A DNA stretch of 33,925 bases from Bacillota bacterium (GTDB taxonomy: Bacteria > Bacillota > Sulfobacillia > Sulfobacillales > Sulfobacillaceae): assembly GCA_021797675.1 (NCBI GenBank), contig JAJZZH010000233.1:1-33925 (forward strand). The letters are read 5' to 3'. Every line of letters begins with the position of its first letter. The stretch's first letter is position 1. A program made the position numbers and the translations under genes. Of the stretch, positions 1,848-27,712 are shown one piece after another. The notes below the pieces were generated by a model. The model was not told the origin of the DNA, ran no database searches, and saw nothing but the letters and a program-made list of their open reading frames with translations.

Positions 1848-2630
1848 CTAGACGATTAACGCTCCGCCGTCGACGGGTAGGATCGCGCCGGTAATGTAGC
1901 TCGCCTCGTCGGAGACCAAAAAACGAACCAGGGCGGCCATCTCTTGCGGGGTGCCCGGACGCGGGATCGGCTGCCAGCCGGATGCGCGTTCGGGCACCCC
2001 GCTCCGTTGCCAAGCCGCGCGCTGGCCCTCGTGGTCGCGGTTGATGTCGGTCTCGACCCCGCCTGGCGCCACGGCATTCACGCGAACGTGATAGGGGGCG
2101 AGCGCTACCGCCAACGCCCGGGTTAAGCCGTCTACCCCGGCCTTCGAGGCGATATAATGCACCTGATGGGGTGTCGCGATCGCCGTCGACACGGTGGAAA
2201 TATTCACCACGGCACCTCGGTTTCGCTGCCGGAAGTTGGGCAGGAGCGCTCGTACCATGAAGAACATGGCCGACAAATTGACCTCCAGCGTCTCATGCCA
2301 CAAGGCATCGGTAATATGTTCCAGATCCTCGAATGGGCAGATGCCCGCGTTATTGACCAAAATATCGACGCCGGCGTGGCGCGCTAGGACCTCGGCTACC
2401 GCCGTGTTGACTCTTTCCGATTGTGCGACGTCGACCGGGTACAGCGCCACCCGGCCCCCATCCTGGTGATTTAGATCGCGGATCAGGGCCTCGGCCCTGG
2501 CATCCGGATTGCGGTCAAAAATCGCCACCGCCGCCCCCGCTTCCGCCAGGGCGCACACAATGCCCGCGCCGATGCCGTGACCACCTCCGGTGACAATTGC
2601 CACGCGCCCGGATAACGGTGTGGGATTCAT
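1848..2630 (-). CDS. SDR-family NAD-dependent oxidoreductase
   Basis: A 260-aa classical short-chain dehydrogenase/reductase. It has the Rossmann motif TGGGHGIG (14-21), Asp39 at the end of beta-2 (FDRN), which favours NAD over NADP, NNAG (93-96), Asn118, a Ser-rich strand (NISTVST, 143-149) and the catalytic YIASK (Tyr159, Lys163). The C-terminal G-x-I-L-P-V-D-G-G is typical. ATG 2630 is preceded by GGGAGAGCCC. The same 11 bases ATGGGCTCTCC occur at 2629-2639 and 2719-2729, an apparent short duplication that includes the ribosome-binding region. It is the last gene of the minus-strand cluster, about 100 bases after the rhamnonate-dehydratase-like gene. By family and context it could be an aldose 1-dehydrogenase or a 2-keto-3-deoxy-acid 4-dehydrogenase of the non-phosphorylated L-rhamnose route. 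The substrate is inference. Confidence 0.9.
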   Translation of the reverse strand: MNPTPLSGRVAIVTGGGHGIGAGIVCALAEAGAAVAIFDRNPDARAEALIRDLNHQDGGRVALYPVDVAQSERVNTAVAEVLARHAGVDILVNNAGICPFEDLEHITDALWHETLEVNLSAMFFMVRALLPNFRQRNRGAVVNISTVSTAIATPHQVHYIASKAGVDGLTRALAVALAPYHVRVNAVAPGGVETDINRDHEGQRAAWQRSGVPERASGWQPIPRPGTPQEMAALVRFLVSDEASYITGAILPVDGGALIV

Positions 2631-2730: not shown

Positions 2731-3849
2731 TCAGATCGCGTAGCGGATACCCAGTCCCGGCTCTTCGGACGGATTAATCACCCCGCCCGCCGGGTCCGGG
2801 ACCCCGGCGATCACCACCTGCGGACGGCCCCGCTCGCGGTCCCAGGTACGGACCCACTCGGCATAGGGGGCATTGACCTGGCTCTTGATCAAGTGCAGGC
2901 CGGCGGCCGTAAGCCCCCCGGCGTGAGGCACCACCGCCAGATGGTAGGCCGAGGCCAGGTGGCAAATCCGCCGCGTCTCGCTGATGCCCCCAACCCAAGC
3001 TAAATCGGGCTGCAAGATCGTGACGCCGCCGGTTTCGATAAGGTCGCGAAACCCCCACCGCGTATATTCGTGTTCGCCAGTGGCGATGGCGACCGGACTC
3101 GAATGCTTGCCCAAGGCTTCATAACCGCGATAGTCGTCGGGAGGGAGCGGCTCTTCAATCCAGCGCACGTCGTAGCGCTCCACCGCTTCGCGCATGCGAA
3201 GCGTGTACTCGACGTCCCACGCCATATAGCAGTCAAGCAGGATTTCGCGGTCGGGTCCGATCGCCTCTCGGCAGTCCTGAATCAGCACCAGGTTTTGCCG
3301 GATTCCCGTCTTGCCGTCCGCCGGGCCGTGGGGCATCGCCAGCTTTATCCCCACTCCCGCAAACTCTTTCCAGTCCTCGGGGTCGTTGGTGGTCTGATAG
3401 ACGGGAATCTCGGCCTTGGTGGATCCCCCCAAGAGCTTATAGACGGGCAGCCCCTGCGCTTTGCCTATCACGTCCCAAAGCGCCATATCCACGCCACTGA
3501 GGGCAAATAGGGGGAGCCCCTTGCGGCCGTAGGGCAGCGATGCGCGATACATCTGATCCCATAGGCGCTCGATATCGTACGCGTCCTGTCCGATTAAAAG
3601 ATGCGCCAAATGCTCACCGACGATGGCACGAACCGCCTCCCCGCCGCCGGTCACGCCGTATCCGATCACCCCGTCGTCGGTGGTAAGGCGGATGAGCACT
3701 TCAAAAAATGGGGCCGTCCACGAGGACCGACGCCGATAGTATTCGGGATATATGGACATCGGATTGGCAATCACCGCTTCCCCCAACCACGAGGGGCCGG
3801 GGTGATCGGGATGCACAATCCGTTCGACATCTACCTTCACAATCTTCAT
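2731..3849 (-). CDS. Enolase-superfamily sugar-acid dehydratase, L-rhamnonate-dehydratase-like
   Basis: A 372-aa mandelate-racemase/enolase-superfamily enzyme predicted to dehydrate an aldonic acid to its 2-keto-3-deoxy acid in the cytoplasm. The N-terminal capping domain contains A-N-P-M-S-I-Y-P-E-Y, similar to the PMS-Y segment of RhmD. The barrel carries the Mg ligands in order: Asp in LLDCYMAWDVEY, Glu in WIEEPLPPDDY and Glu in ATGEHEYTRWGF. The GEHEYT His and a later His in VVPHAGG correspond to the RhmD active-site pair, and MPHGPADGK matches the HWGPHDG loop of rhamnonate dehydratases. ATG 3849 follows AAAGAGGAGG closely. An unusual tandem repeat carrying copies of that ribosome-binding sequence lies immediately upstream. 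L-fuconate or a related 6-deoxy or pentonic acid is an alternative substrate. No aldolase or hydrolase for the product is present here. Confidence 0.8.
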   Translation of the reverse strand: MKIVKVDVERIVHPDHPGPSWLGEAVIANPMSIYPEYYRRRSSWTAPFFEVLIRLTTDDGVIGYGVTGGGEAVRAIVGEHLAHLLIGQDAYDIERLWDQMYRASLPYGRKGLPLFALSGVDMALWDVIGKAQGLPVYKLLGGSTKAEIPVYQTTNDPEDWKEFAGVGIKLAMPHGPADGKTGIRQNLVLIQDCREAIGPDREILLDCYMAWDVEYTLRMREAVERYDVRWIEEPLPPDDYRGYEALGKHSSPVAIATGEHEYTRWGFRDLIETGGVTILQPDLAWVGGISETRRICHLASAYHLAVVPHAGGLTAAGLHLIKSQVNAPYAEWVRTWDRERGRPQVVIAGVPDPAGGVINPSEEPGLGIRYAI

Positions 3850-6155: not shown

Positions 6156-8729
6156 TCATTGCCAACCAAGCCGGATTGCCATGCGGGAAGGGATGGCTTC
6201 GCCCCAATCGACCCAGGAAAATCCGGGAGCATGCTGCGTAATGGACTGGGCCGGCATCCATTTCCCGTCCCAAAACGCCTCCGCGCGGCGCAGCCGGCGC
6301 TCTCCACCCGCCGCGAGCAGCCGACGATGGCTTCCCTGCCATCCGCTCACGGTCAACGTCTCGCTCCCTTGGCTGTCGCGCCCGACCGTCAAGCGCCCCA
6401 CCGTGCTGATCCGCGTCCCCTGCGGGTCGCTCAGCACCACCGTCTCCAGCGCCGCGGGCAGCCCCATCAGCCGCAAGAGCACCTTCACCAAGGTCTCCGG
6501 ATTAATGTCGACGCCCTGCACGGGGGTGTTGTCGGGCAAATACCAACTATCAGGATATCCGCCGCGTCCCGGGGCGGCGAGCCGCTGTTGGTAGAGCGCG
6601 CTGTGAAAAATCCCCCGGCCGATTTCCGTCCACGGCCAAGACGCGTCATAGGGATCCAACCGCAGGAGGGCGTCGGCAAAGACCATGCCGTTCCACTGCA
6701 CGGGCCGACCCAACCAGGACACCGTGAAAAACGTCGCGCCAAAAATCGCGATGCTGGCCCAGCGCATAACCGGGCGGTCGGGCTTCTCCCAGACGTATAA
6801 AAAGGGCAGGCCGGTCATCGCCCAGTAGCGCGCCGCGTCGAGATATGGACTCTGCCCGGTCAGCTGGTAGCCGGCCAGATAGGCGTCAACGGCGCGCGCG
6901 GCGGCCAGAATATCCGGGGCATGGACGGGGCATTCCCACACCTGCGCCGCGCGCGGCACGCGAAAGGCCCGCATGGCCTCCAGCGCCTTCAGGCCGCCCG
7001 CGATCATCGCCCGATCGCCCAAGAGCTTTCCCAGCTGAAGCACCGTCTCCGCCTTGGTGGCGGTGATCCCGACCGCCTTGGTTCCTGCCGGGCCCAACGT
7101 CTTTTCGGTTTCGGATTGCGGCGCAAAGACCCAGTTGCCGTCGTCGCCCTGTTCGGCCAAGAGCTTACGTGCCGCGGCGTACGCGGTGGACAGCCCCTCG
7201 GCGCCCTCCGCGTACAAAAACGCTGGCTCGAATCCGGGGATATGCACGCCCCCGCCTGGCAGCGGATCTTCGGGGTGAAAGCGGGCTCCACCCGCCTGCA
7301 CAATGGCTTGCAACTGGCTCGCCGTCCGGTCCTGGCGACCCCCGGCGAGCATCTGGGCCAAAAAGGCATAGGCGGGATAATAGCGAGGGGCCCAGCCCAG
7401 GACATGTCCCCAGCCTTCCGCGCTTGCATCCCAGAACTGCTCGGCGTAGGCCTCGCGGACCACGGCCCATTCGGTGGCATAGTCAAAGGGTGGCACCATG
7501 GCCGACGGCAAGCCGTAGACGGCCGCCCAGTCGTCCAAGGCGGAAAGCACGGACGACGCGGGATGGCGCACGGCCAGGGTCGCCGTGCACTGCAACCGGG
7601 TAGCCGGTGCCCAGCGATATGTTTCCGCCAGCTGAGCGTTTTCGCGGGGATGGTAGCGGGCGCCGCCTGGCAGCGCAAGCCCCATCCGGTGGCGCGGAGC
7701 CGTCCCGTACCAGGCGTCAGGCGTGGAGTACTGCGCAGCATAGCCGGCATCGTCTCCGTTCCAGGGCTGGCGCTGATCCCACAGCAGGCTCACGACCGTC
7801 GACCGCAGGCGAACCGCCATCAGCGGCCAGGTGATCTTGAGCTCGTGGGGACTCATCCTGAGGTGCTCGGGGCCATGGACGTCCAGTTCGCTCGAGGAGG
7901 TCTCCTGATCGACCAGCCACTCTAGACCGGGGAAGAGCCCCTCCTCCCGCTGATCCTCCTCCAAGATGACGGTCGGCCCGTCGAGCAGGCAGAGATTGAG
8001 CGGCCGGTCGGTCCAGGCCTGATAGTTGATGGTCATCGTGGGCATTGCCGGATCGAGGCGATACGTAACGGCGAGACGCACGGTCGCCGGGGCGGCCGCC
8101 GACCAAGCCACCCCGTGGCTCGCTCCTTCGGCGCTGAGTTCGACGGTCAGCCCGTCGGTTCCCGCTTTCACCACCTGAGGGATGAGGGTGACGGCTTGGG
8201 GCGCCTGCGCCGACCCGGCGACCAAACGGCCGATGAGGCCACTGCTGCCCCGTCGTACCCAGGTTTCCTGCTCGCGAACGTACAAAAATCCCACGGGGTA
8301 TCCGTAGGGCTGGCGCGGGCACACCCACCGGATCCCTGCGTTCCGCAGATCGACTCCGTCTTCCACGAGGTTGGCGTCGTTCAGTCCCGCCGGAGGCTCT
8401 TGGGTCAGGATCGGCAAATAGTCGGTCAACTCGAGGGCGTCGTCAGCCTCGCCGAGGCGGACCCGCATTTCCCCCAAACCCACGGCCACGACGGGTACTC
8501 GCCATTGTCCGACGGCCACTTCCTCCGCGGGGCCGAAGCAGTCGTTGCCCGCCCACGCCATGGTCGGCCAAGGCGGCTGATCCGCCTTCTTATCGGACGC
8601 CTTGGCGGCGGCTGGTGAAGCGGCGTCTGCTTCAACCATGCAGCGGACGGTCACCACGGCGCCGACTTCGGCATACGGCACATTGACCGTCAGGCGGACA
8701 CGCCATCCGTCTCGTAGCGCTTCTAACAT
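6156..8729 (-). CDS. Unrecognised 857-aa protein, possible intracellular (alpha/alpha) toroid carbohydrate-active enzyme
   Basis: I do not recognise a named family. The N-terminal ~400 residues are beta-rich (alternating hydrophobic strands, many Val/Thr/Trp). Residues ~430-720 are helical, with repeated aromatic and acidic segments such as WDASAEGWGHVLGWAPRYY, AGGARFHPEDP, VWECPVHAPD and RWASIAIFG. The C-terminal ~100 residues are again beta-rich. This sandwich-toroid-sheet order is the architecture of many polysaccharide lyases and alpha/alpha6 glycosidases. Candidate acid/base residues are plentiful, but I cannot assign them. There is no signal peptide, so it should act in the cytoplasm on imported material. 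ATG 8729 follows AAAGGAGTGAGAAGGACC; upstream codons back to 8822 lack homologous character. It lies 40 bases after the permease gene. Function is inference from context. Confidence 0.8.
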   Translation of the reverse strand: MLEALRDGWRVRLTVNVPYAEVGAVVTVRCMVEADAASPAAAKASDKKADQPPWPTMAWAGNDCFGPAEEVAVGQWRVPVVAVGLGEMRVRLGEADDALELTDYLPILTQEPPAGLNDANLVEDGVDLRNAGIRWVCPRQPYGYPVGFLYVREQETWVRRGSSGLIGRLVAGSAQAPQAVTLIPQVVKAGTDGLTVELSAEGASHGVAWSAAAPATVRLAVTYRLDPAMPTMTINYQAWTDRPLNLCLLDGPTVILEEDQREEGLFPGLEWLVDQETSSSELDVHGPEHLRMSPHELKITWPLMAVRLRSTVVSLLWDQRQPWNGDDAGYAAQYSTPDAWYGTAPRHRMGLALPGGARYHPRENAQLAETYRWAPATRLQCTATLAVRHPASSVLSALDDWAAVYGLPSAMVPPFDYATEWAVVREAYAEQFWDASAEGWGHVLGWAPRYYPAYAFLAQMLAGGRQDRTASQLQAIVQAGGARFHPEDPLPGGGVHIPGFEPAFLYAEGAEGLSTAYAAARKLLAEQGDDGNWVFAPQSETEKTLGPAGTKAVGITATKAETVLQLGKLLGDRAMIAGGLKALEAMRAFRVPRAAQVWECPVHAPDILAAARAVDAYLAGYQLTGQSPYLDAARYWAMTGLPFLYVWEKPDRPVMRWASIAIFGATFFTVSWLGRPVQWNGMVFADALLRLDPYDASWPWTEIGRGIFHSALYQQRLAAPGRGGYPDSWYLPDNTPVQGVDINPETLVKVLLRLMGLPAALETVVLSDPQGTRISTVGRLTVGRDSQGSETLTVSGWQGSHRRLLAAGGERRLRRAEAFWDGKWMPAQSITQHAPGFSWVDWGEAIPSRMAIRLGWQ

Positions 8730-8769: not shown

Positions 8770-9648
8770 TTAGAGCTTGATCGCCCCGGACGTCGCACCT
8801 TGAATGAAATAGCGCATGCCAAACGCCATCAGGACTATCAACGGCACGGCGGAAATCACGTACGCGGCAAACTCGGGCCCCATCTGGCTAATCGTGTACG
8901 ACGACGTGTACTTCCAAAGTGCCAACGCCACCGGCTGCAGATTCGGCGTATTGATCACCAGCGAGGGCCAGATATAGTCGTTGTAGGTCCCAATCATTTG
9001 CAGCACCCCGACCGTCATCAGCATCGGCCAACTCATCGGAATGCCGATATAGCGAAAGACATCCCACTCTTTGGCGCCGTCGACGCGCGCGGATTCGAAG
9101 ATCTCTTCCGGCACCCCGGCAATATAGCTGCGGACGAGAAAAATTCCCAACACCTGGCCTCCGGAACTCCAAGGCAGAATCAGGGCCAACGGGGTGTTGG
9201 CCAGGTGGATATTCGTCACCAGGACATACATGGGAATGAGGGTCAAGATGCCGGGAATCATGATCAGGGCCAAGATGACCAAGAACAAGGCATCGCGTCC
9301 GGGGAACTTATGGCGGCCGAACACATATCCGGAAATGGCGGCCAGCGCCATCGTGAACACCGTCGAGGCCAAACAGTAGCCGAGGCTGTCCAAGATGTTG
9401 ACGCCCACCCCATTCCAAGCGGTGACATAGTTTTGCCAGAGCCAGGGATTGGGCAACGCCCAAAATTTGACCAATACCTGGCCGTAACTCCGAAACGACA
9501 TAAATAGCGTCAAGATTAAGGGGATAAAGCTGAAAACGACAAACACCGCCAAGGCCAAATGAATGGCCAACTGGTTGCCTGCCGATCGGCCTTGACGGTG
9601 AGTCATCGTTCGCGCCTTGACGCCTACGGTCGCTGATTGCGTAGCCAT
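8770..9648 (-). CDS. MalG-type carbohydrate ABC transporter permease (CUT1)
   Basis: A 292-aa inner permease half with about six membrane segments: first at ~22-44 (LAIHLALAVFVVFSFIPLIL), last near 265-285. The EAA loop EEIFESARVDGAKEWDVFRYI contacts the ATPase, as in MalG. ATG 9648 is preceded by AAGGAGTGGAAGCG; an in-frame ATG at 9705 would overlap the upstream gene and add a charged, non-homologous stretch. It is the partner of the permease encoded just before it and, with the binding protein, forms a type I sugar importer. No ATP-binding subunit is encoded in the cluster, so a shared MsiK/MsmK-type ATPase elsewhere is expected. The substrate is inferred only from neighbouring enzymes. Confidence 0.92.
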   Translation of the reverse strand: MATQSATVGVKARTMTHRQGRSAGNQLAIHLALAVFVVFSFIPLILTLFMSFRSYGQVLVKFWALPNPWLWQNYVTAWNGVGVNILDSLGYCLASTVFTMALAAISGYVFGRHKFPGRDALFLVILALIMIPGILTLIPMYVLVTNIHLANTPLALILPWSSGGQVLGIFLVRSYIAGVPEEIFESARVDGAKEWDVFRYIGIPMSWPMLMTVGVLQMIGTYNDYIWPSLVINTPNLQPVALALWKYTSSYTISQMGPEFAAYVISAVPLIVLMAFGMRYFIQGATSGAIKL

Positions 9649-9691: not shown

Positions 9692-11644
9692 TTAATCGCT
9701 GGCACTCGACCGCACGTACTTCATTTGGAGCACAGTCAGCACCAAAATCACTAAAAACATGGACACTGAGATGGCCGACGAATACCCCATCTCGCTGTAC
9801 TTGGTGGCCGCATAGTACATCTCCAGGCCGGGCACAAAGGTCGACGTCTCCGGCCCGCCGCCCGTCATCACCAGCTGCACGCCAAACGCCTGCAATCCTC
9901 CAATGACCGAGGTGACCAGCACAAATCGGAATTGTCCCGTCAACAGGGGAATATGGATGTTCCGAATCAGGGTCTTCAAGGGCGCTCCGTCAACCCGGGC
10001 GGCGTCGATGAGTTCGCTCGGGATGGCCAAGAGCCCCGCATAAAAGACCAAGATGGCGATGACGTTGGTAAACGGAAACCCCATAAAGATGAGGGCGGCG
10101 AGCGCCAGGTGGGGATTGCCGAGCCAGTTGTGGGCGAGCGCGCCGAATCCCAGCGCGCGCAGGGTTTCATTCAAGAGGCCGACGTTGGGCTCGTAGATGT
10201 TCTCCCAAATCAACAGGCCGGCCACGGCCGGAATCACTAACGGCACGATGAACAGCACGCGATAGACATACTGCCAGCGCGACGACCGCAGATGAAACAT
10301 GAGCTCGGCGACCAGCAGGGGAATGCCGATGCCGCCGAGGGTGATCCCGAAGAAAATCATGATCAGGATGTGCGGAATTCCCGCCAGCAAAAACGGGTCC
10401 TGGGCCATTTTGGCGAAGTTGTGAAAGCCCACGAAATACGATTGTGCGCCCGGATTCCATCGGTACAGCGAATGATACAGCCCGGAGACGGCGGGATAGT
10501 AGTTAAACAGCAAGAGCAGCGCAAAGGTGGGCAGGAGCATGATGTACGAGGTCCGATGCTTAAGGATGGTGCCCACCCAGGCCTGGGCAACGGAGGATCG
10601 CTGGTACTGACGCCAGGCCAGTCCAATGATGGCCAACACCACGAGCCCCACCGCCGCCATCATGATTTTGCCGGTCAGCTTGCCCTGGGCATAGACGGCC
10701 ATGGCTTGGGGCACCGCCACCAGATAGGCGGCGTGATTTTGTGACCCGGCCGCAAGCAGCGCGCCCGAGGCCGATAGCGCGACGCTGGTATTCGGCTGCC
10801 CGGTATTGAGCTGCCAGAGCAAGCCGCCGTGCTGATTGAAAAGAGCGATCAGGTCGGAGTTGTTGGTGGCCGCCGCCACCTCGCGGGCGTGGGCGCTGAC
10901 GGCGACGCCGTTGACTTGATGCCCGAAATCATGGCGCCAGAGCAGCTTTCCATGGCCTTGGAGCAGCGAGAGATGATGATCTTGTGAGCCGACCGCCGCA
11001 TAGTGGCCATGGGGGCTGATGGCCACCGCGTTGATCAGGCCCTGGGTCACATAGGACCACACGTTTTTGCCCGCCGGGGTGACGGCATAGGCGGTGTCGT
11101 TGGAGCCCCCAACCAGGAACAGGGAACCCGACGCCGTGGTCGCCAACGATACCCCCCCGGCGGGCAGATTGACCTGGCGGACCGAATGGCCGCTTCGGGA
11201 ATATTCGTCGAGCAGGGGCACAATCGGGTACGTTACCGCGACCAACCGGGCGCCGTGGGTCACCGCCAGTCCCGCGGGACTCGTCATCAAGCTCCGGCGC
11301 CAGAGCAAGTGGCCGCTTCGGGTAAAGAGAAAAAGGTTGTTGTCCTGATCGGCCATGGCGACGTACCGCCCGCCGGGACTGACCGCTACCAGCGCCACGG
11401 AATTATGGGCCCGGTATTGCCATTGCACCTTGCCCCCGGGAGTCAGCACCGAGAGCACGTTATCCCGCGAGCCTACCGCCACGTAGCGGCCGGAGAGCGG
11501 CGTGGCCACCGAGTAAATCACATCATGCGCGCGAAATACCGCCATCGGCGCCGGCGCCCTCGCCATGACGGGCATCAGCCACACCAAGCCTCCCAGCACC
11601 ATCCCAATCAAGATGGCCATCCAGCGCAAACAGGGGGTTCGCAT
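9692..11644 (-). CDS. MalF-type ABC permease fused to an N-terminal seven-bladed beta-propeller
   Basis: A 650-aa protein, about twice the usual MalF-type length. Order: membrane anchor at ~9-27; seven ~40-residue WD40/PQQ-like repeats at ~35-312, each with a G-x-Y-V-A-V-G-S-x-D-N-type turn and a G-x-L-L-W/V-Q-W strand; a second membrane segment at ~326-345; a basic linker (RQYQRSS, LKHR); then a complete MalF core from ~366 with ~6 helices and an EAA loop (SELIDAARVDGAPLKTLIRNIHIP). The positive-inside rule puts the propeller outside the cell, next to the binding protein. No stop or frameshift separates the parts, and the junction is a natural transmembrane linker. ATG 11644 has GGAGG about 12 bases upstream. 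Context makes it the partner of the MalG-type permease. The propeller may receive or sense the ligand or the binding protein; this is inference. Confidence 0.92.
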   Translation of the reverse strand: MRTPCLRWMAILIGMVLGGLVWLMPVMARAPAPMAVFRAHDVIYSVATPLSGRYVAVGSRDNVLSVLTPGGKVQWQYRAHNSVALVAVSPGGRYVAMADQDNNLFLFTRSGHLLWRRSLMTSPAGLAVTHGARLVAVTYPIVPLLDEYSRSGHSVRQVNLPAGGVSLATTASGSLFLVGGSNDTAYAVTPAGKNVWSYVTQGLINAVAISPHGHYAAVGSQDHHLSLLQGHGKLLWRHDFGHQVNGVAVSAHAREVAAATNNSDLIALFNQHGGLLWQLNTGQPNTSVALSASGALLAAGSQNHAAYLVAVPQAMAVYAQGKLTGKIMMAAVGLVVLAIIGLAWRQYQRSSVAQAWVGTILKHRTSYIMLLPTFALLLLFNYYPAVSGLYHSLYRWNPGAQSYFVGFHNFAKMAQDPFLLAGIPHILIMIFFGITLGGIGIPLLVAELMFHLRSSRWQYVYRVLFIVPLVIPAVAGLLIWENIYEPNVGLLNETLRALGFGALAHNWLGNPHLALAALIFMGFPFTNVIAILVFYAGLLAIPSELIDAARVDGAPLKTLIRNIHIPLLTGQFRFVLVTSVIGGLQAFGVQLVMTGGGPETSTFVPGLEMYYAATKYSEMGYSSAISVSMFLVILVLTVLQMKYVRSSASD

Positions 11645-11746: not shown

Positions 11747-13381
11747 CTAGCCGTGTTTGACTGGCGGCACAGGCTTCTTTTGTGGTGTCTTGAGATCGGC
11801 GGGCGTCATGAGGGCCACGTTTTCCAACGCGGGGACGAAGTACTTCTTGATATTGGCCTCGCTCGCGCGTGCGTAGGCCTTGGTCGACATATGCCCGGAG
11901 AGATATTTCTGCGCTAAAGCCACCCAGGCCACGACGCTCGGTTGGTAGTCGCCGAGGCCGCGAGCAATACTTGCCGCTGTGGTGGGCTTGCCTTCAGAGT
12001 CGCCGATGTATTTGACGGAGGCGAATTCCTTCCCCAGCTTGCCGGGAATGCTGACGCCCTTGATGGCCACCGGGGTAACCGCCCCGTTGGGCGACTTCAG
12101 CGCCGCCTCCTGGGCGACCCGCTGGCCGGCGGGACTCGTCAGCCACATCATGAAGTTCATGTCGAGCGCGGTCTGTTTGGGATTTTTGTTCACAAATCCC
12201 TGGAATCCAATCGGCAGCGAGATGGTGCGGGCGGGCGCTTCGACGTACGGGCCCTGCATTGACGGCATGTTGAAGAAGCCATAAGGGAAAGACTTGAAGG
12301 CAGTGCCCTTCTTGCCCGTGAAGAGCGAATTCTTTAGGTCTTTGGGAAACGCCGAAATGGTCCAGGTGCCGGTTACTTCGGTGGCGGCTTTTTGGCTCAA
12401 AAACAGGCTGTCGGATTGCGTGTCGCCGACCCCGACGAATCCCGGTTCGGCATACGAGAAGATCGTGCGGAGATTGCGGTCGACCGCCATCCATTTTGGA
12501 CTGGCCACATTATACGAGGGGCGTTTAGCTTGTTGGATCAGCCGCCACTGCCGCACCGGGTTGACGATGACTTGGGTCGAGTTGTCGTTGTTGGGATTCT
12601 TAGGGTTGTAATGCCACTTTTTGTTGATGCTGGCCACGTAGTTGTAGTCCCCAGGTCTCGAAACGGCGTCCCGCACGCTGCTGCGCACGTATTGGTCGGG
12701 GTAGATCCGCATCAGCCAGCCGCCCTTGTCGCCCCAGAGGCTATTGTAATTGCCGCCAATGGCGAAGGGAATCGTGCCGGATTTCTTCAGTTTCTTGAAA
12801 TCGGTGATGAGTTGTTTAAAGGTCGTCGGTGTCTTGTAGATGCCCGCCTTATGCCACAGCGCCTTGTTGTACATCCAAATCACCTGAATGACTTGGTAGT
12901 TCAAATCGTAGAGTTTCCCGTTGCCCGGATACCCGGTGTAGGGGTTGTAGCCGATGAGATTCCAATTGAAGTTGTCCAGCCACAAATTATGGGTGTACGG
13001 GTCTTTATGAAAGAGCCAGGGCTGAAAGTTGACGAATTTGCCTTCCGCCTGCAGTTGCGCCACCGTGTTGTTGGTGACCAAGTCAGCCGTAGGATGCCCC
13101 GCCGAAAACTGCGCCGTCAGCCACGTACTGTAGGTGGACGGATTTTGCCACTGGATATTCACCTTGACTCCGGGCTCGATGCGTTCGTAGGCCTTGGCGA
13201 TCGCATGCCAGCCCTGTCCCGGCGTACCTCCAAAATCCACGTTGATGGTGCCATGAAACTGGGGCAGCTTCTGCCCCTTGACGGCAGCGGGACGTACACC
13301 CTGCGGCCATCCGGCACCGAGCGCCCCCATGCCCCCCAACAGAGCGGCAATGCCCACTCCCACCATCACAGAACTCCGCAT
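11747..13381 (-). CDS. Extracellular sugar-binding protein of an ABC importer
   Basis: A 544-aa secreted family-1-type solute-binding protein. Residues 1-25 form a signal/anchor sequence (short basic start, hydrophobic VMVGVGIAALLGGMGALGAG). Then come the two-lobed fold start (TINVDFGGTPGQGWHAIAKAYERIEPGVKV), the segment ADLVTNN, aromatic-rich ligand-loop candidates (NLWLDNFNWN, WGDKGGWLM), a T-W-T-I-S-A-F segment and a C-terminal LTSPAGQRVAQEAALKSPNGA helix pair. There is no lipobox cysteine after the signal, which is unusual for a Gram-positive binding protein; it may stay tethered by an uncleaved signal or be held by its permease. ATG 13381 is preceded by GAGGAGG; an ATG 36 bases earlier lacks one. 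It is first in the catabolic cluster, and the ~450 bases upstream should hold the operon promoter. Confidence 0.9.
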   Translation of the reverse strand: MRSSVMVGVGIAALLGGMGALGAGWPQGVRPAAVKGQKLPQFHGTINVDFGGTPGQGWHAIAKAYERIEPGVKVNIQWQNPSTYSTWLTAQFSAGHPTADLVTNNTVAQLQAEGKFVNFQPWLFHKDPYTHNLWLDNFNWNLIGYNPYTGYPGNGKLYDLNYQVIQVIWMYNKALWHKAGIYKTPTTFKQLITDFKKLKKSGTIPFAIGGNYNSLWGDKGGWLMRIYPDQYVRSSVRDAVSRPGDYNYVASINKKWHYNPKNPNNDNSTQVIVNPVRQWRLIQQAKRPSYNVASPKWMAVDRNLRTIFSYAEPGFVGVGDTQSDSLFLSQKAATEVTGTWTISAFPKDLKNSLFTGKKGTAFKSFPYGFFNMPSMQGPYVEAPARTISLPIGFQGFVNKNPKQTALDMNFMMWLTSPAGQRVAQEAALKSPNGAVTPVAIKGVSIPGKLGKEFASVKYIGDSEGKPTTAASIARGLGDYQPSVVAWVALAQKYLSGHMSTKAYARASEANIKKYFVPALENVALMTPADLKTPQKKPVPPVKHG

Positions 13382-13834
13382 TACGCTTACCTCCTCTTGT
13401 TTAGACCGTTTCATCATCAGGACGCATAAACTTTCATAACCGAGAACTGCGTATCGACATAAAGAAATAATTCGCTATCCGATTTCAAATTCCTGCTACT
13501 TGTCGTCGACACTGCGAATTCTCTGTAATGTATCGCTATCGTCAGATTTCGACGCATGCCAAGGCTGCCTCCCAAGACTTGACCAAGCCCTCGCGGATCT
13601 CGGCAGCTGGGTTTTCCAGCGAGGGAAATACCCCGGCGGTCGAGAAGCTACCAGGTCAGTGCTCAAGGGGGACGTTCGGAGCCATCGGTAATCTCAGCGC
13701 TTGTCGGTAGGGCGACGCAAAGACGTCTCGATCAGCTACACGTTTGCGCGCCGCAGTCTGGGACCGATGCCTGTAGATGTGTCGAAGGCAGTTCGGTTAG
13801 GCTGGGTTGACGGCAGAGACCAAAACTCCCGAAT
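13382..13834. other. Gene-free spacer; presumed promoter region of the catabolic operon
   Basis: No convincing gene is seen. It lies upstream of the binding-protein gene and downstream of the polysaccharide locus, both on the minus strand, so it should contain the catabolic-operon promoter and possibly the end of the glycan transcript. A weak minus-strand candidate is TTGAAA followed after 17 bases by a poor -10 (TCTTTA) within about 13455-13490. I do not regard it as established. A plus-strand string GGGCGACGCAAAG near 13710 recalls the c-di-GMP-I riboswitch core but is in the wrong orientation for any gene here. Base composition shifts from GC-rich to AT-richer across this stretch. Confidence 0.4.
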
Positions 13835-15568
13835 CTAAATCCCTTCATGCTTCAGAGCTGGCAGTGGGCGAAAAAGGTATATGCCACCTCTGTGAATCTC
13901 GTTAGCATAGCCGACATCTCGCATTATCGAAACAAACGATTGCGGGGGGAACGTCGTCGTAGCCACCCATTGCACTTCTTGAGATGCAAGAAGTGCCGCA
14001 AACCGCTTGACAATGGTTGCATCGCTCTTAGCAGGCGGCCATCCAGTAGCTGCCATCTCCTCAACCAACCAATTCTTGGCCCATGGCAATGGTACTGGAC
14101 CGAGGTAGCCAGAGGCATTTCGGAAGTAAAACTTGGTTGCTATCTGTGCACCCATCTCGTTCCCATTGATATAGTAAGGAAATATCAATCCTACTGAATT
14201 ACGCGCGATATACTTTTTGTACGTTGACGATTTCCGAAAAAAAGCTGGAACTGGCGGATTTGTCAACCACAAACTTGGAACTCCTAGCGCATTAGGTAGA
14301 ATAGGAACAATAATAAGCATTCCTAAGACAAGGCGTTTCAGATGTTTTGGTGGCAATTTCAAATCGCTTAGCCCTTTGGCGACAATAATCGATGCATAAA
14401 TGAATCCAAATAACATGAATCTTGAAGGTAACAAGTCCTTTATTAACGGGACCCAAGAGAATAACCGCCAAGCTCCCGGAAATAATGGTATGCCGTCAAG
14501 CCGTACAACATCACCCATCGACAAAAGCACAACAATGCCCAAGTTTATAGCGCATACCTTCATCCATCTATCTCTGAACCAATTGTTCACAGAACTCGCT
14601 ACCAAAAAGACAATCATGGGAAGACCCATATATCCTCCCCACTCAGCCAAATCCCCAGAGAAATTTTGAGTGAGAGAAATTAGGTGCTGACCACCAAGGG
14701 AAATCGCTGTAGGAATTATAAAGTTGAGCACATCAATACCAAAATAATAGGGATCGGAAGGAGGATGATGAAATGGTATTTTGTGCCGCATTTCAACCAA
14801 TACTGGTACAAGGCATATCCCGCTAGCTATCCACGGCGCTACAAATGCTGGAATCACTTTTTTGATAACTGCCCATCCCGCCGGCTGAACAATTGACGTA
14901 ACGAAGGCGAACATCCCACTGAAGAGAGCTAGCGCGGCATAAATCTCCTCCGAGATAAGAAATTGAAACACTAACATTAGGGTGAGGGCTCCACCCAACA
15001 TCCATCTCCGAAGAGTAGGACCATTATTCACCTTTTCCTCAAAAAGCTGAGCCCCTATCAATATCATAAAAGCCATGGGAGCAATGGTAGTCAAATTGAT
15101 ATGGCCCAAAGTTTGCTGAGCTAATTCGTAACTCGAATATCCATATATATACCCACCAATAACACTTGCGAAAGTATTTTTAAAAAACCGTTTTAGAATC
15201 AAGTACATGCCAAAAGGGGCCAGAACCATATCAAGCAACGTAATTGTATTGAAGCTGGCTACTGGTCCGAATACCTGGGTTAAAGGCCAAAATAGCACGG
15301 ACAAAACGGGAATTGAGGTAGTCCACATTAGATTTTCGCCGGTAGGGGCCCATACAAACTTAGTGATCACGGCATGGATTCCATGCCCTAAGGCATATGG
15401 CCACCAGGCCAGCCACCAAAGAAAACTTACCGAATCGGCATTAGAACCCAGCCACCAGCTGGTGAAATGTCTCGCAACAAGATGCCCAAACAATCCAAAC
15501 GCCGTCAACACATATAAACACAAGACCACTATTGTGGATCTTCTTGTTCGAACCGTTTTAGCGATCAT
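13835..15568 (-). CDS. Polytopic GT-C-like membrane protein, probable glycosyltransferase
   Basis: A 577-aa protein with about 10-11 membrane segments. The first extracytoplasmic loop after helix 1 holds GSNADSVSFLWWLAWWPYAL and then W-A-P-T-G-E-N-L. The acidic residue in that loop and the aromatic LWWLAWWP run are typical of lipid-phosphate-sugar-dependent (GT-C) membrane glycosyltransferases. The C-terminal ~130 residues are mostly soluble and end outside the membrane region (E-V-Q-W-V-A-T-T, GIYLFRPLP). ATG 15568 overlaps the end of the preceding gene by 11 bases; its ribosome-binding site is weak (GAAAGAAC). It is the last gene of the glycan transcript and part of its AT-richer half. It could transfer a sugar from a polyprenyl-phosphate donor to the glycan outside the cell. 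Donor and acceptor are unknown. Confidence 0.75.
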   Translation of the reverse strand: MIAKTVRTRRSTIVVLCLYVLTAFGLFGHLVARHFTSWWLGSNADSVSFLWWLAWWPYALGHGIHAVITKFVWAPTGENLMWTTSIPVLSVLFWPLTQVFGPVASFNTITLLDMVLAPFGMYLILKRFFKNTFASVIGGYIYGYSSYELAQQTLGHINLTTIAPMAFMILIGAQLFEEKVNNGPTLRRWMLGGALTLMLVFQFLISEEIYAALALFSGMFAFVTSIVQPAGWAVIKKVIPAFVAPWIASGICLVPVLVEMRHKIPFHHPPSDPYYFGIDVLNFIIPTAISLGGQHLISLTQNFSGDLAEWGGYMGLPMIVFLVASSVNNWFRDRWMKVCAINLGIVVLLSMGDVVRLDGIPLFPGAWRLFSWVPLIKDLLPSRFMLFGFIYASIIVAKGLSDLKLPPKHLKRLVLGMLIIVPILPNALGVPSLWLTNPPVPAFFRKSSTYKKYIARNSVGLIFPYYINGNEMGAQIATKFYFRNASGYLGPVPLPWAKNWLVEEMAATGWPPAKSDATIVKRFAALLASQEVQWVATTTFPPQSFVSIMRDVGYANEIHRGGIYLFRPLPALKHEGI

Positions 15569-16676
15569 TGGTGTTCTTTCTTTTGCGACTTAGCCACGTG
15601 CTAATCTTTGCTCGAGAGAACTTTCTGGCCCATAACCACCGAAATACTTTGGTATATCGCCAACTTCTTGAGCGCTCCATATGTTGGAGTCTTTGATGCA
15701 TCGCTTGATACTTATTATCAGCGCTTCTTACAGCATACTGAAGACCTGTCAAAGCACGCCCGTACAACAGATTCCTTCGCTGCATTTGTTGTATTACTGC
15801 ACCCAGTCGGCGGATCTCTTCACCAGACTCATTCAACTCCTGTTGGATAGCTTCTTTAACCCTAACCTTTTCTTGGAGCTCCGCAATTTGGGCGTAAGTC
15901 TCACGGAGGCTGTCTTGGCATCTGTCAACCTGAACTTTCAGGTTTGTAATCTGTTCTTTCAGATCTGTATTCGCTTTGGCTAGTTGATCAGCTCTCAATT
16001 CGGCCGGGCGAATAAATCGATCATGTACACAAGGTGGGACCTGGAAAAGACTTGAATATCTATCGCGCTCCTCTTCGACTGTGTAAAATCGATTAAGACC
16101 ATCAAAGTACAGAAACGTATAACCTGCAGCCGTCATTATATCTTCCCATTCCTCATGGCACGGGATCGGCGTATTGGGTAGTGTGGCTTCAATTATGACT
16201 ATCTTGGGGCGAAATAGGCGCCAGTCGCCTCCGACAAGCACATCACGTTCGGCGCCTTCGACGTCAATTTTGAGGAAATCTATGGAAACATCGTGGGCGT
16301 ACGAAGCACAGATTTCTCCTAAGGTCATCAATGGAACCTCATATTCGACAAAATCCACATTTAAACCACTTTCATCACTGATAGTAGACAGTCTCGATAG
16401 TTCGAAATCAACGACTTCCCGAAAGTTAACTTGGCCCTTCCTCTTCCCAACGGCAACATTGAGATTAAGATCCCTTTGTCGGGCTTTAACAAGCCTGTTA
16501 AAAAACCGAATATTTGGTTCGACATTAATACCATGCCATCCCTTATCGTAAAAGTGCTTAGTCACGGAATCGATTTCAGGATCCCAGGCTCCTATATCAA
16601 TATAAAATCCTGGTTCGTCGCCGCTGAAGATTCGATTCAGCATCACATCTTCAAAGTTTTGAGCAAACGTCACCAA
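15558..16676 (-). CDS. FkbM-family methyltransferase with long C-terminal coiled coil
   Basis: A 372-aa protein. Residues 1-200 form a SAM-dependent FkbM methyltransferase: AQNFEDVMLNRIF, the SAM-binding segment FYIDIGAWDP, the acidic NVEPN, then IDFLKIDVEGAERDVL and IVIIEATLP. Residues ~222-330 are a heptad-rich coiled coil (KANTDLKEQITNLKVQVDR onward), followed by a basic R/K/W tail (RSWRYTKVFRWLWARKF). Such tails are common on surface-glycan enzymes and may attach the protein to the membrane or to partner GTs. The start is TTG 16676, with an adjacent GTG at 16673 as alternative; family alignment (MITYAQNFEDV-type starts) favours TTG. The upstream G-run is a poor ribosome-binding site. It probably O-methylates a sugar of the exported glycan; the site is not predictable. 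Confidence 0.85.
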   Translation of the reverse strand: MVTFAQNFEDVMLNRIFSGDEPGFYIDIGAWDPEIDSVTKHFYDKGWHGINVEPNIRFFNRLVKARQRDLNLNVAVGKRKGQVNFREVVDFELSRLSTISDESGLNVDFVEYEVPLMTLGEICASYAHDVSIDFLKIDVEGAERDVLVGGDWRLFRPKIVIIEATLPNTPIPCHEEWEDIMTAAGYTFLYFDGLNRFYTVEEERDRYSSLFQVPPCVHDRFIRPAELRADQLAKANTDLKEQITNLKVQVDRCQDSLRETYAQIAELQEKVRVKEAIQQELNESGEEIRRLGAVIQQMQRRNLLYGRALTGLQYAVRSADNKYQAMHQRLQHMERSRSWRYTKVFRWLWARKFSRAKISTWLSRKRKNTNDR

Positions 16677-16695
16677 CTTTGCGCCCCCCCCAGGA

Positions 16696-18630
16696 CTATC
16701 TGGCTAGCTTTAGAATCCTCTTCGAAGTCCACAACGCAACCCGTGTTAACCAGCCCGGCAAAGGCAAATACCTCATGATAATTAACGATAAACTATTTTT
16801 CTCCGCCAAGGAAAGTCGGCTATGAGCGTCAACAAGCTTAGCAAAGGGATTATCATACTCGAGCATGATGCGCTTATTAATGGAGGAGGTCCGTCCACCA
16901 AAAGCCACCGAACATTCCCTGAGCACCGAATCCTGAACATCTTCTTCGACTTCGTATCTGATTTCACGTTTATCGCTGATGTCCCTTAGTACGGTGGGCC
17001 TGTGGGTGTACTCCCATTCCTCTCCGGAAATCATCCTCAACGCGGCAAAATAACGGTGGCCATGAAGATAATTTAGAAAAGAGAACAGTCGGGGTCTTTC
17101 CAAGAGAGACCGCGAAGCCAAATAAGTTCCCCATACCTCATGTCTATCATCAAGATGTCGCGCAGCAGAGAAGTAGTCGCGGAATTCCTGTCCTTTTTTG
17201 TCCTTGTGTTTTAGAACATAATCACTAATTGCAAACCTTGCCTGCGGTTTATCTTCCAATATTCGGACCAACATGCTGATGTGGTCCCGATCCCACAACT
17301 CACCCTCGTTCATCACGATTATGGCATCCGGCAATGGTAAATCATGGATAGATTCTCCGATGAGATGGCCCAAAGAAATACGCGCATTTCTCGTATACAT
17401 CGCCAGGTATCGAACATCACCAATGACCTGACTGTTCTTCACAATTTGCTCGACCGTTCTTTTTTCACCTTCACTACACGATGAATCCAGCATGATATGG
17501 ACTCGGCAATTCCGATATCGTTGAATGCCCACATTCAACAGCAGGCTCTTGAGCTTATATGGTGAAAGATCGTATATTGGAATTATTACATGTACCACAC
17601 GTTCTTGTGTTGTGGCAAGTAATTTGTTTTCCTGGGCTTGAACTCTAGACCCATGCGAAGAAAGGATCTGACGCAACTGATGTTTGAGTTCGAATTGTTG
17701 TCGAAAGATGTCACGGGCCTTTAGAGCCAATCTTCTTGCTTTCTCTGGATTTTCCACAATCCACGAATAGTGATTGAGAATCTGTCTGGCCAAATTTTTC
17801 GTATCGTCGGTCGGAGAAACATATAACAGCGAGTCTCCGAAATTGTCTTGAGCAAAGCGATTGTCATCACAAATCACAACGGCTCCAGCAGCAATACTTT
17901 CAAATAATCGGTTGGACATAAGGCCTGACTGGAGGTGCGCAGGTGACGAAAGAACTAAAGATATGCCGCACTCGGAGATCCTGCGAATCAAAGATACTCC
18001 ATCAAAAGGGATTGGTCCTTGATAACACTTAAATCCTGCCCAGACCTCGACTCCCCGAACAGTCTTTGGACCATAAATCCTAACGATATCTCTATCATCC
18101 AAGTAGCGTAAAACCTCATGATGCCTGCCTTTCGAGCGATCAATCCGTTCCCAATTGATTCCGGCGTAAAATATCTTAGGATGTTTCGGCCATAATGACT
18201 CATCCTCGATGGATAGGCCTACGGTATGATTAAGAAAAGGCAACGGCAGATTGATATCACGGCGATGCCAAGCAACGCGCAAGAGATGGTCATCGGCCCA
18301 TGTTGAACCACACGACAAAAAATCATCATGGGATAGCAGGTTCTCAGAAAATCGTTCGTATCCCCAATCGAAATAGAATCGCAGGGGGTTCCATAAAGCC
18401 ACGTAAGAATATGCCGGATAGCATTTTGGGGATTCAAAATGTAGGTGAATAACGAATTCTACTTCCCCTGATTGAAGAGGCAGCAACGGATTATCGACAT
18501 GATAACCGTTTCTGTCAAGTTCAACAACCTGAACTCCCAATTCCTGAGCAGCCATCTTAATGCGTTGAATATTCTCGTGCTCGGCAGTCGCTTGGTTGGG
18601 CCAAAGACGCACAATACCAATCTTCGTCAT
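16696..18630 (-). CDS. Two-domain glycosyltransferase (GT4/CgeB-like plus GT2-like)
   Basis: A 644-aa cytoplasmic protein with two glycosyltransferase-like halves. The N-terminal part (~1-330) ends like CgeB/GT4 enzymes: LSSPAHLQSGLMSNRLFESIAAGAVVICDD, then a display segment LLYVSPTDD and a helix-rich end. The C-terminal part (~345-640) starts like a GT2 domain (VVHVIIPIYDLSPYKLKSLLLN, RVHIMLDSS) and has DAIIVMNEGELWDRDHIS around the position of the usual metal-binding DxD region. A classic DxD is not obvious, so that half may use another acidic pair or be inactive. ATG 18630 has GGAGAG just upstream; an in-frame ATG at 18642 lies inside that site. It follows the epimerase gene by 14 bases. 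The protein could add two sugars in sequence. Confidence 0.8.
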   Translation of the reverse strand: MTKIGIVRLWPNQATAEHENIQRIKMAAQELGVQVVELDRNGYHVDNPLLPLQSGEVEFVIHLHFESPKCYPAYSYVALWNPLRFYFDWGYERFSENLLSHDDFLSCGSTWADDHLLRVAWHRRDINLPLPFLNHTVGLSIEDESLWPKHPKIFYAGINWERIDRSKGRHHEVLRYLDDRDIVRIYGPKTVRGVEVWAGFKCYQGPIPFDGVSLIRRISECGISLVLSSPAHLQSGLMSNRLFESIAAGAVVICDDNRFAQDNFGDSLLYVSPTDDTKNLARQILNHYSWIVENPEKARRLALKARDIFRQQFELKHQLRQILSSHGSRVQAQENKLLATTQERVVHVIIPIYDLSPYKLKSLLLNVGIQRYRNCRVHIMLDSSCSEGEKRTVEQIVKNSQVIGDVRYLAMYTRNARISLGHLIGESIHDLPLPDAIIVMNEGELWDRDHISMLVRILEDKPQARFAISDYVLKHKDKKGQEFRDYFSAARHLDDRHEVWGTYLASRSLLERPRLFSFLNYLHGHRYFAALRMISGEEWEYTHRPTVLRDISDKREIRYEVEEDVQDSVLRECSVAFGGRTSSINKRIMLEYDNPFAKLVDAHSRLSLAEKNSLSLIIMRYLPLPGWLTRVALWTSKRILKLAR

Positions 18631-18644
18631 TACTCTCTCCACTC

Positions 18645-19628
18645 TTACCCTCGATGACCGTCAGTCAAGAAATAGTCCAGACAACGTTGAATCCCTGTTT
18701 TCAGCGAAGTCGTCGCCTGAAATCCTAGGTCTCGTTGTTTCTTCGTATCGCCGCCTCTGGCGAAGACTCCTTCTGGCTTTTCGGACAATCCAACTATTCT
18801 CGGATCGTAGCCGAAAATGTTGGCTGCTGTACTCGCCAATTCGCGAAAAGACGTCAACAAACCGGTCGACAAATTAACCGCATCTGCGTTGTCAATCCGG
18901 TCTATGGTATCCAAAATTCCAGTGACGCAATCTTCGATATAGATAAAGTCGCGCATTTGCTGTCCTGTTCCCCACACGAACACTTCATCCTTGCCCTTAT
19001 CGTCTATTATCCTCTGACAAATAGCTGGAAATGGATAGCTAAGATCCTGATCCTCGCCATAACCAGAAAACGGACGATAAACTACACTTCGAATCTCATA
19101 TTTTTCGTAAGCGAGCCTAGCCAAATATTCCCCAGTTAGCTTTGACCACCCATACGTAAGGTCCGGCATGCCAATATCTTCCGAAAACGTAATCATGTCT
19201 TCGATTAATAATTGAAAAGCCTCCTTGCGTTGAAATCGAACCGGATATGCAGCGCTCGAACTAAAATAGACGACTTTTCCCGGGCGCACCTTGGTAACCC
19301 AGTTCCACAGCGAGGCGTCGATCGCCAAATCTGTCGCTACCCCTAGTGGGTCGTTTTCTATCATCAGTCGTCCACCAACTATGGCCGCAAGATGGAACAC
19401 ATAGTCGAACTGTTCGTTCGTGTTTTGAAAGTATTCGCGACAATCTTGCTGCACAAACTGAAACCTTGCATTATCGTTAGGACTGAACAACGGCCAGTTA
19501 GAAGGATGGATCCCTCCCGTATATGGAACAATTGGATCTACGCATACGACCTCATAACCACCAGCCAGCAATCGTCTGCATAAATGCCGCCCGACGAAGC
19601 CACTTCCTCCGGTTACCAATGCTCTCAT
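18645..19628 (-). CDS. NAD-dependent epimerase/dehydratase (extended SDR, nucleotide-sugar enzyme)
   Basis: A 327-aa extended SDR acting on a nucleotide-activated sugar in the cytoplasm. It has the NAD motif TGGSGFVG (6-13), a Rossmann acidic residue in VVCVDP, HLAAIVGG, FSSSAAYPV with the catalytic Ser, and the YxxxK pair in LTYGWSKLTGEYLA. It also has VYRPFSGYGEDQD and a QMRDFIYIEDC segment typical of UDP-glucose-epimerase/GDP-sugar relatives. ATG 19628 is preceded by GGAGGG; an ATG 15 bases earlier sits in that site. It lies between a GT4 gene and the two-domain GT gene, all on one strand, so it likely supplies a sugar nucleotide for the glycan. The long insertion after the first motif and the exact sugar (UDP-Glc/Gal, GDP- or dTDP-sugar) cannot be resolved. 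Confidence 0.88.
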   Translation of the reverse strand: MRALVTGGSGFVGRHLCRRLLAGGYEVVCVDPIVPYTGGIHPSNWPLFSPNDNARFQFVQQDCREYFQNTNEQFDYVFHLAAIVGGRLMIENDPLGVATDLAIDASLWNWVTKVRPGKVVYFSSSAAYPVRFQRKEAFQLLIEDMITFSEDIGMPDLTYGWSKLTGEYLARLAYEKYEIRSVVYRPFSGYGEDQDLSYPFPAICQRIIDDKGKDEVFVWGTGQQMRDFIYIEDCVTGILDTIDRIDNADAVNLSTGLLTSFRELASTAANIFGYDPRIVGLSEKPEGVFARGGDTKKQRDLGFQATTSLKTGIQRCLDYFLTDGHRG

Positions 19629-19678
19629 CGTCTCACCCTCCAAACTTAGATGCTAATCACAGTATCATGTTCTGCCAA

Positions 19679-20740
19679 TCACGAACCTATTTTTCGATAA
19701 AAATCCCAATGGGCTCTGGCCATTGACTCTCTTGTTAAAAAGTTCAAATCACCTCGTGAAAACTCCCCTGTAGAAGTGTTATCCACCACAGAAAACATCA
19801 ATTCAGATAGTGATTCGACTTCCATGTCTGTCCATAAAAACACTCTGGAATCCTGCTTTACGCTTGTAATCCAACCGGTACAACTGGCGACAATTGGCAA
19901 ACCGGCTACAAAAGCGTTCAATGTCCCGATTCCAAAACCTTCATACCAAGAAGGTTGCACATAGATATCAGCCGCCTGATATAAGCGTGCAATTGTTATC
20001 TCATCCACGTAACCTGGCATAACCAGACGCTCGGGATGCCTAACCGAAGCTACTGCTTTTTCGAAATCCTCGTCCTTCCATCCCAACATTCCTGCTAGGA
20101 TCAATTGATGCGGAATCCGGTAGCGGTCGACCGTCATATCAAACGCACGAACTAGGCTTCCCAAGTTTTTCCGGGGTTCGATCGTTCCTACGTGGAGAAT
20201 GTATGGCCGATCGCTTTGTCGCGCTTCGACACTCCAGTTCGATCGCAACGAGCTATCACATGCAACTGGGATGATCGCAACTGGGCAACTCGCGTCGGGG
20301 AAATAGCACAACAATTCTTTGGATATTTCCTCCGTTGGAACGATGATGCCATCCGCAACTCGAACGCTAATCGGAACCATTTTCATCAAATATTCCCTAA
20401 CCTCCTTTCGAACCCAGCCTGGATGCTTAAGGTATCCAAAGTCGTGAATCGTGACCACTCGCCTAAACTTACCAAACCTGGGCAATGCATATGCAGGGCC
20501 ATGAAACAACGATCCACCTGAACGGGTCATTGCCCAAGGAAGGCTCGTTTGAAGCCAGGGCAACCCCGGGAATTTCGGCAAGATCACTGCGTTATGTTTG
20601 GTTGCTCGATCAGAAAACAATATGACTCCTTCTGCCTCATTCCTCTCCTCAATACCGCTAACCAAGCTTTCCAAGTAGAACGGTATACCAGTCTTCGGCC
20701 CAGGCAACCCGAGAATTCGGATATCAATTCCGACCCTCAA
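19679..20740 (-). CDS. GT4 glycosyltransferase with altered EX7E motif
   Basis: A 353-aa GT-B glycosyltransferase, family 4 (group 1). The N-terminal Rossmann half begins MRVGIDIRILGLPGPKTGI and has VVTIHDFGYLKHP. The C-terminal half has the donor-phosphate site VGTIEPRKNL, then LYQAADIYVQPSWYEGFGIGTLNAFVAGLPIVAS. The second Glu of the usual EX7E (in PxLEAM) is Asn here (GTLNAF), although the rest is well conserved. The start is TTG 20740, with AAAGGGG about ten bases upstream. It is the first gene of the AT-richer half of the glycan locus and may have its own promoter in the 157-base gap upstream. The enzyme is probably active with a changed donor contact, but reduced activity is possible. 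Confidence 0.88.
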   Translation of the reverse strand: MRVGIDIRILGLPGPKTGIPFYLESLVSGIEERNEAEGVILFSDRATKHNAVILPKFPGLPWLQTSLPWAMTRSGGSLFHGPAYALPRFGKFRRVVTIHDFGYLKHPGWVRKEVREYLMKMVPISVRVADGIIVPTEEISKELLCYFPDASCPVAIIPVACDSSLRSNWSVEARQSDRPYILHVGTIEPRKNLGSLVRAFDMTVDRYRIPHQLILAGMLGWKDEDFEKAVASVRHPERLVMPGYVDEITIARLYQAADIYVQPSWYEGFGIGTLNAFVAGLPIVASCTGWITSVKQDSRVFLWTDMEVESLSELMFSVVDNTSTGEFSRGDLNFLTRESMARAHWDFYRKIGS

Positions 20741-20897
20741 ATGCTTGCAACCCCTTTAAACGACATCCTACACTTCGCGCGTGTCAAACGCGAGGTTTTG
20801 AAGCGCTGGCGACTGACCGAAAGTTCTTGGCAGCGAGCAGTATATCAAAGACATATGTTCCGATCGCTCCGGCGGTTTCATTGGCACGACAAATTCG

Positions 20898-21944
20898 TTA
20901 CCAGTAGATGCCAAGCGTGCACCTCACCATGCTTTCACGGTCAATAACGGAAGCGCCTTGCTCACCATTTGCACGAAGCATCATAAGAATCCGACGTGCC
21001 CAATCCGTCGGTGTTGCAGACGTTCCGACCAGTGATCTTTCCGGCAGCACTTCGCCCATACCGCCCACATCTCGCGCCACAACAATTCGGCCAGCTCTCA
21101 CCGCCTCCAACAACGCATACGGCATGCCTTCCTTTACCGACGTCAACGCGAACACCCGCATCTTTGCCAACCATTCGACAACATTCTCCTGAAATCCTGC
21201 AAATGTGGTGATGTCATTAATCCCTAGCTCTTGCGAAAGCTGTTCGAGCTGTGGTCGCAATGGGCCGTCGCCTACCAAGATCAAACGTACGGCGGGCACT
21301 TCCTTGCGCACTGCGGCCACCGCCTTCAAGAGCACATCCAGGGCCTTTTCCTCCGTAAAGCGAGCAATGGTGCCGATGACGGGATCTTCCGGAAGCGGGA
21401 TGGGTTCGGGAAACGGGTCGATGCCGTTCGGAATGTGCACCAGTCGGGTGCGCTTTGCGCTCCGGTGGCGCTGCAACTCTTGCAAGTCGCGGTTCGACAC
21501 CAAAATCGTGGCCTTGGCCAACGGCAAGAGGCTGAGCTCGATCTTCCGGTACAGCGCCTGCTTCCACTTGGGCATGCGCTCGTTCAGATAGACGAGTCCG
21601 TGAATGGTGTACACGACGGGTATCGCACTCTTTCTGAGCGCCAGTCGCACGAGCGTTCCCGCTTTGGAGCTGTGCGCGTGGACCACGTCGGGATGAAGTG
21701 CTTCGATTTGCTGTCGGAGGTGGTGCAGCGTCCGCAGATCTCGCCACGGGCGAATGGCCCGGGTTAGCGTGGGCACCTGCTGACAGCGAATCTGTTGAGC
21801 CTCCAAACGGGTCGTGAGCCTCCCCTCTTCGCCGTACAGGACATTGACTTCATGGCCCAAGGCCTTAAGCCCACAGGAAAGGTCATAGACATGGCGCTGT
21901 GCTCCACCCCAGTCTGCTGACGTAATGACTTGGACGATCTTCAT
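20898..21944 (-). CDS. GT4 glycosyltransferase
   Basis: A 348-aa GT-B enzyme of family 4. The start MKIVQVITSADWGGAQRHVYDL is the glycine-rich N-terminal loop of the family; VVHAHSSKAGTLVRL and VYTIHGLVY mark the acceptor half. IGTIARFTEEKALDVLLKA and LILVGDGPLR mark the donor half, and EGMPYALLEAV is an intact EX7E. ATG 21944 overlaps the stop of the upstream GT gene by 4 bases (ATGA at 21941-21944), so the two are translationally coupled; longer in-frame starts would intrude into that gene. The C-terminus ends at MVRCTLGIYW, near where such enzymes normally finish, so at most a short truncation has occurred. It marks the junction between the GC-rich and AT-richer halves of the locus. Confidence 0.9.
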   Translation of the reverse strand: MKIVQVITSADWGGAQRHVYDLSCGLKALGHEVNVLYGEEGRLTTRLEAQQIRCQQVPTLTRAIRPWRDLRTLHHLRQQIEALHPDVVHAHSSKAGTLVRLALRKSAIPVVYTIHGLVYLNERMPKWKQALYRKIELSLLPLAKATILVSNRDLQELQRHRSAKRTRLVHIPNGIDPFPEPIPLPEDPVIGTIARFTEEKALDVLLKAVAAVRKEVPAVRLILVGDGPLRPQLEQLSQELGINDITTFAGFQENVVEWLAKMRVFALTSVKEGMPYALLEAVRAGRIVVARDVGGMGEVLPERSLVGTSATPTDWARRILMMLRANGEQGASVIDRESMVRCTLGIYW

Positions 21945-25367: not shown

Positions 25368-25369
25368 GG

Positions 25370-27711: not shown

Positions 27712-27712
27712 G

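Follow-up and report, generated by a model that had tools for sequence, protein, structure and literature searches.

The window analyzed here is a 33,925-nt stretch of a Bacillota contig, and its minus strand carries an operon for a putative sugar importer in which a single gene encodes both a seven-bladed propeller and a MalF-type permease. The gene order is binding protein, fusion permease, MalG-type partner, orphan protein, metallo-beta-lactamase-fold protein (just below its Pfam cut-off), class V aminotransferase-like protein, dehydratase, and SDR. The main features are listed below.

11747–13417, minus strand: extracellular solute-binding protein (SBP_bac_1, 556 aa; Pfam)
12560–12652, minus strand: residues 256–286 of the binding protein, an insertion common to five fused systems
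9692–11644, minus strand: propeller–MalF fusion permease, 650 aa in a single frame, with an ATG start and GGAGG upstream
11564–11635, minus strand: N-terminal hydrophobic helix, signal peptide or anchor, residues 4–27 (hydropathy; AlphaFold helix 4–27)
10715–11545, minus strand: seven-bladed propeller, residues 34–310, 28 strands (Pfam, AlphaFold, Foldseek)
10616–10672, minus strand: extra membrane helix, residues 325–343, between propeller and MalF core (hydropathy)
10544–10615, minus strand: basic linker, residues 344–367, with four K/R and no D/E, predicted cytoplasmic (hydropathy and sequence)
9695–10558, minus strand: MalF-type core, residues 363–650, six helices (Pfam, PDB sequence matches, hydropathy)
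9935–10018, minus strand: EAA loop, residues 543–570 (read from sequence)
8770–9648, minus strand: MalG-type partner permease; frame open to 9705, likely ATG start at 9648 after AAGGAG
6156–8729, minus strand: orphan protein of ~857 aa directly downstream of MalG (frame to 8822, ~888 aa), conserved in the fused systems of the family
2731–3849, minus strand: enolase-superfamily sugar-acid dehydratase (best model L-rhamnonate dehydratase, 316 bits, below the cut-off of 393)
1848–2630, minus strand: SDR dehydrogenase (L-rhamnose 1-dehydrogenase among many similar matches)

The initial annotation had described one 650-aa frame with an anchor, a propeller, a second membrane segment, a basic linker, and a complete MalF core with its EAA loop, and this layout was confirmed by open reading frame analysis, Pfam, hydropathy, and AlphaFold. 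The fusion frame is free of stops on the minus strand, and the corresponding plus-strand frame is interrupted by stops. Hydropathy gives a helix at residues 9–27, a gap of 297 residues, a helix at 325–343, the linker at 344–367, and six core helices. In Pfam searches, propeller families cover residues 33–317 (best E-value 1e-15), PQQ_2 matches the propeller as repeats only, and BPD_transp_1 (PF00528) matches residues 438–640 with 41.1 bits (cut-off 26.4). The PDB sequence matches are to WD40-type and designed propellers in the first half of the protein and to MalF-type permeases in the second half, where the EAA loop reads ELIDAARVDGA...IP. The fusion architecture is well supported.

A closed seven-bladed ring had been set out beforehand as a refutable prediction, and structure prediction from an alignment of four family sequences bears it out. 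The AlphaFold model places 28 strands (7 × 4) between residues 34 and 310, with pLDDT of 84–95 in most 10-residue blocks of the propeller and 76 in the lowest; the MalF core of the same model has low confidence because the alignment is shallow. The top Foldseek match of the propeller is the closed seven-bladed structure 7BIE (TMt 0.87, rmsd 2.1), which spans the whole ring, and the domain is accordingly modeled as a closed WD40/PQQ-like ring of four-stranded blades. The propeller is predicted to be held outside the membrane, between the signal or anchor helix and the extra transmembrane helix, on the basis of the positive-inside rule applied to the basic linker. By eye, the N-terminus of the family orthologs resembles a cleavable signal peptide (e.g., SVALA|SS in G005), and that of the distant homolog in G466 looks like an uncleaved anchor. 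The extracytoplasmic placement originally proposed therefore agrees with both the linker and the signal-like N-terminus, as a prediction from sequence.

The search for other propeller–permease fusions and their synteny, proposed together with the initial annotation, returned relatives within the family and one outside it. Intact orthologs are present in two other genera of the window's family (G011, 65% identical; G005, 57% identical), both of which preserve the arrangement binding protein–fusion–MalG–orphan. Two further copies are cut by contig ends: that of G003 is 95% identical over the C-terminal 150 residues, and that of G008 ends in the extra helix, where a stop lies five bases from the contig end. 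The phylum survey also recovered G466, a distant genome with a colinear 681-aa fusion (29% identical over 614 aligned residues) that adjoins a binding-protein gene and a MalG-like gene. Within the propeller, third codon positions vary most (0.73 vs. 0.34 and 0.25); this variation and the intact orthologs in two other genera indicate that the fusion is more than a chance juxtaposition. We also considered whether a sequencing or assembly error had joined two genes. The stop in the G008 copy could be read in that way, despite its position at the contig end, but intact fusions occur in three separate family assemblies and in G466. These rule out such an error as the source of the fusion, and we assign it a nearly negligible probability.

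In the Bacillota genomes covered by the surveys, the fusion is genuine but rare. Across ~980 genomes of the phylum, no fusion was found beyond one family and one distant genome, with only the top three candidates scored per genome in the phylum survey and in that of the class of G174, such that copies could be missed. A propeller-profile search of the window's own class (154 genomes) found no propeller–permease fusion outside the window's family; the class of G466 (17 genomes) yielded none besides G466, and none was found in the classes of G174 (399 genomes) and G168 (73 genomes). Two close-relative patterns, scanned against one genome for each of 84,980 species, recovered the loci of G011, G005, and G008 and no others; all three come from assemblies of an uncultured "Bacillota bacterium". 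Coverage of the fusion protein reaches 80% in no plasmid record. Among the 33 MalF-type matches in the window's own genome, only the fusion itself aligns through the propeller. The literature searched, with partial coverage, contains no description of a propeller fused to a MalF-type permease. The early suggestion of a new transporter architecture can be retained for a variant of the CUT1 importer, seen in one family and G466 among the ~980 genomes of the phylum; global novelty of the architecture is unproven, since phyla beyond Bacillota were reached only by the narrow two-pattern scan.

The four complete fusions group together in a tree of 54 permease cores (support 90/97; 92% of bootstraps), and their clade is nested inside one of ordinary CUT1 permeases. 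The binding proteins of five fused systems likewise form one group (100/100) in a tree of 47 binding proteins. Based on these two clades, a single origin of the fused system as a unit is favored; vertical descent with loss and horizontal transfer would both fit the trees and cannot be told apart. Extracytoplasmic domains commonly show lower identity, and propeller identity is 42–56% in pairs of sequences for which core identity is 79–84%. Between G466 and the family the propeller is only 17–18% identical, so homology of the two propellers rests on colinearity and the two trees. Conservation along the protein is lowest in the signal region, followed by the extra helix and linker, and within the propeller it largely tracks the generic consensus of the repeat.

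The usual description of a sugar ABC importer is a small conserved pore with a separate binding protein, the known exception being the P2 domain of E. coli MalF. The fusion has PF00528 above its cut-off, six core helices, and an EAA loop, and its operon supplies a MalG-type partner and a binding protein on the same strand; it is best classified as a CUT1 permease variant, with sugar transport predicted. It shares the MalF core, EAA loop, MalG partner, and adjacent binding protein with ordinary CUT1 MalF/UgpA-type permeases, but these are about 300 aa long and have neither a propeller nor the extra N-terminal helix pair (the nearest unfused paralogs are 44–45% identical in the core). The P2-bearing MalF of E. 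coli and Thermotogales is likewise a MalF-type CUT1 subunit with eight membrane helices and a large extracytoplasmic domain. However, P2 comprises ~180 residues between TM3 and TM4 (PMC2246101), whereas the equivalent loop of the fusion has only 39 aa (residues 387–425) and the propeller sits between two helices that precede the six core helices. GlnPQ and OpuA also have an extracytoplasmic domain covalently joined to the permease, but there the attached domain is the binding protein itself (PMC8025302); in the fusion it is a propeller, and the binding protein has its own gene. For sugar ABC importers the fusion represents a second extracytoplasmic attachment, differing from P2 in both placement and fold.

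Several neighboring genes bear on the possible cargo. The dehydratase and SDR genes of the operon, and an alpha-L-rhamnosidase-like protein adjoining the L071 group of nearest unfused systems, make a rhamnose-type or similar glycoside a reasonable guess. Three other genomes of the family encode the orphan protein downstream of their fused permease (50–79% identity). It has no match in Pfam, NCBIfam, or PDB (PDB profile search included), and its structure model, with a mean pLDDT of 42, is not usable. Downstream of the G466 fusion (L068:10894–14575) lie a DUF624 protein and a protein of 973 aa that Pfam does not match and that is unrelated to the window's orphan by BLASTP.

The most likely role of the propeller, though a tentative one, is to serve as a platform on which the co-inherited binding protein docks. 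Docking, pre-binding of sugar, and ligand sensing had all been offered as possible roles in the initial annotation, and each is still a hypothesis. A MalF-type subunit of a CUT1 importer would have acquired the propeller at its N-terminus, and from there the propeller may hold or position its cognate binding protein above the MalF/MalG pore, a task that in E. coli MalF falls to the TM3–TM4 P2 domain. The candidate contact is the insertion at residues 256–286 of the binding protein, which is largely absent from 18 related binding proteins. Since the operon has no identified ATPase gene, the importer is assumed to use a shared MsmX-type ATPase whose gene lies elsewhere. Two precedents are consistent with docking: MalF-P2 of E. 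coli directly contacts MalE (PMC3150292), and AztD, a propeller of the periplasm, delivers zinc to AztC, an ABC binding protein (PMC6689063). AztD resembles the proposed arrangement in being a beta-propeller that works with the binding protein of an ABC importer, and differs in being a separate periplasmic zinc-binding protein not joined to a permease (PMC6689063). The fused systems, with an apparently single origin and one binding-protein clade in every case seen, provide ready material for studying how a permease-borne domain changes binding-protein docking. Permeases are nonetheless normally co-inherited with their binding proteins, so the shared clade is not specific evidence for the propeller; the resemblance of its conservation to the repeat consensus also counts against docking.

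The main rival to docking is that the propeller itself binds sugar in a lectin-like manner, concentrating poly- or oligosaccharide at the importer or passing it to the binding protein, which we regard as possible but doubtful. Propellers often bind glycans, and most blades repeat polar Asn, Asp, or Gln residues at two places, where the inner strand begins and in the turn that follows the second strand; many of these residues are invariant in the family. Such positions also belong to the generic repeat consensus and occur in designed propellers, G466 keeps them poorly, and Pfam matched no lectin family. As a candidate binding site, they are inseparable from the repeat consensus and were not retained. 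The transfer of ligand from AztD to a binding protein (PMC6689063) fits sugar binding as well. The propeller seems unlikely to be an outside ligand-handling module, fused to the pore, that captures oligosaccharide and forwards it either to the cognate binding protein or directly to the pore; if it were one, the importer would have two successive extracytoplasmic recognition steps.

A structural role, in which the propeller stabilizes the MalF–MalG assembly or shields its outer face in harsh habitats, also appears rather improbable. The record names of relatives (CF.Solf.bin.16 and FK_Sedi_B) suggest solfatara and sediment metagenomes and the propeller evolves faster than the core, both points in favor of such a role, but the other 32 MalF-type matches in the genome lack a propeller match, and habitat alone thus does not require one. 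Transporters can double as sensors, and a ligand-sensing propeller could signal through the permease by way of the extra helix and linker. The weak conservation of this very segment and the operon, in which no fused or adjacent signaling domain was seen, make a sensor quite improbable.

Returning to the docking platform, tethering of an unanchored binding protein by the propeller was considered and set aside as not discriminating, since a lipobox is missing from almost every binding protein in this genome, whether or not its system is fused; the binding protein of the G011 fused system carries one. Among about 30 CUT1 binding proteins encoded beside MalF-type genes in the window's own genome (G000; loci L075, L076, and L104–L132), a simple motif test found one lipobox, in L128, and this near-absence would be unusual if the host is a monoderm.

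Elsewhere in the window, the minus strand at 13835–30391 holds a polysaccharide cluster. This includes an 892-aa protein without a Pfam match, a Wzt/Wzm-like exporter, several glycosyltransferases, an FkbM methyltransferase, an epimerase, and a DUF2079 membrane protein.
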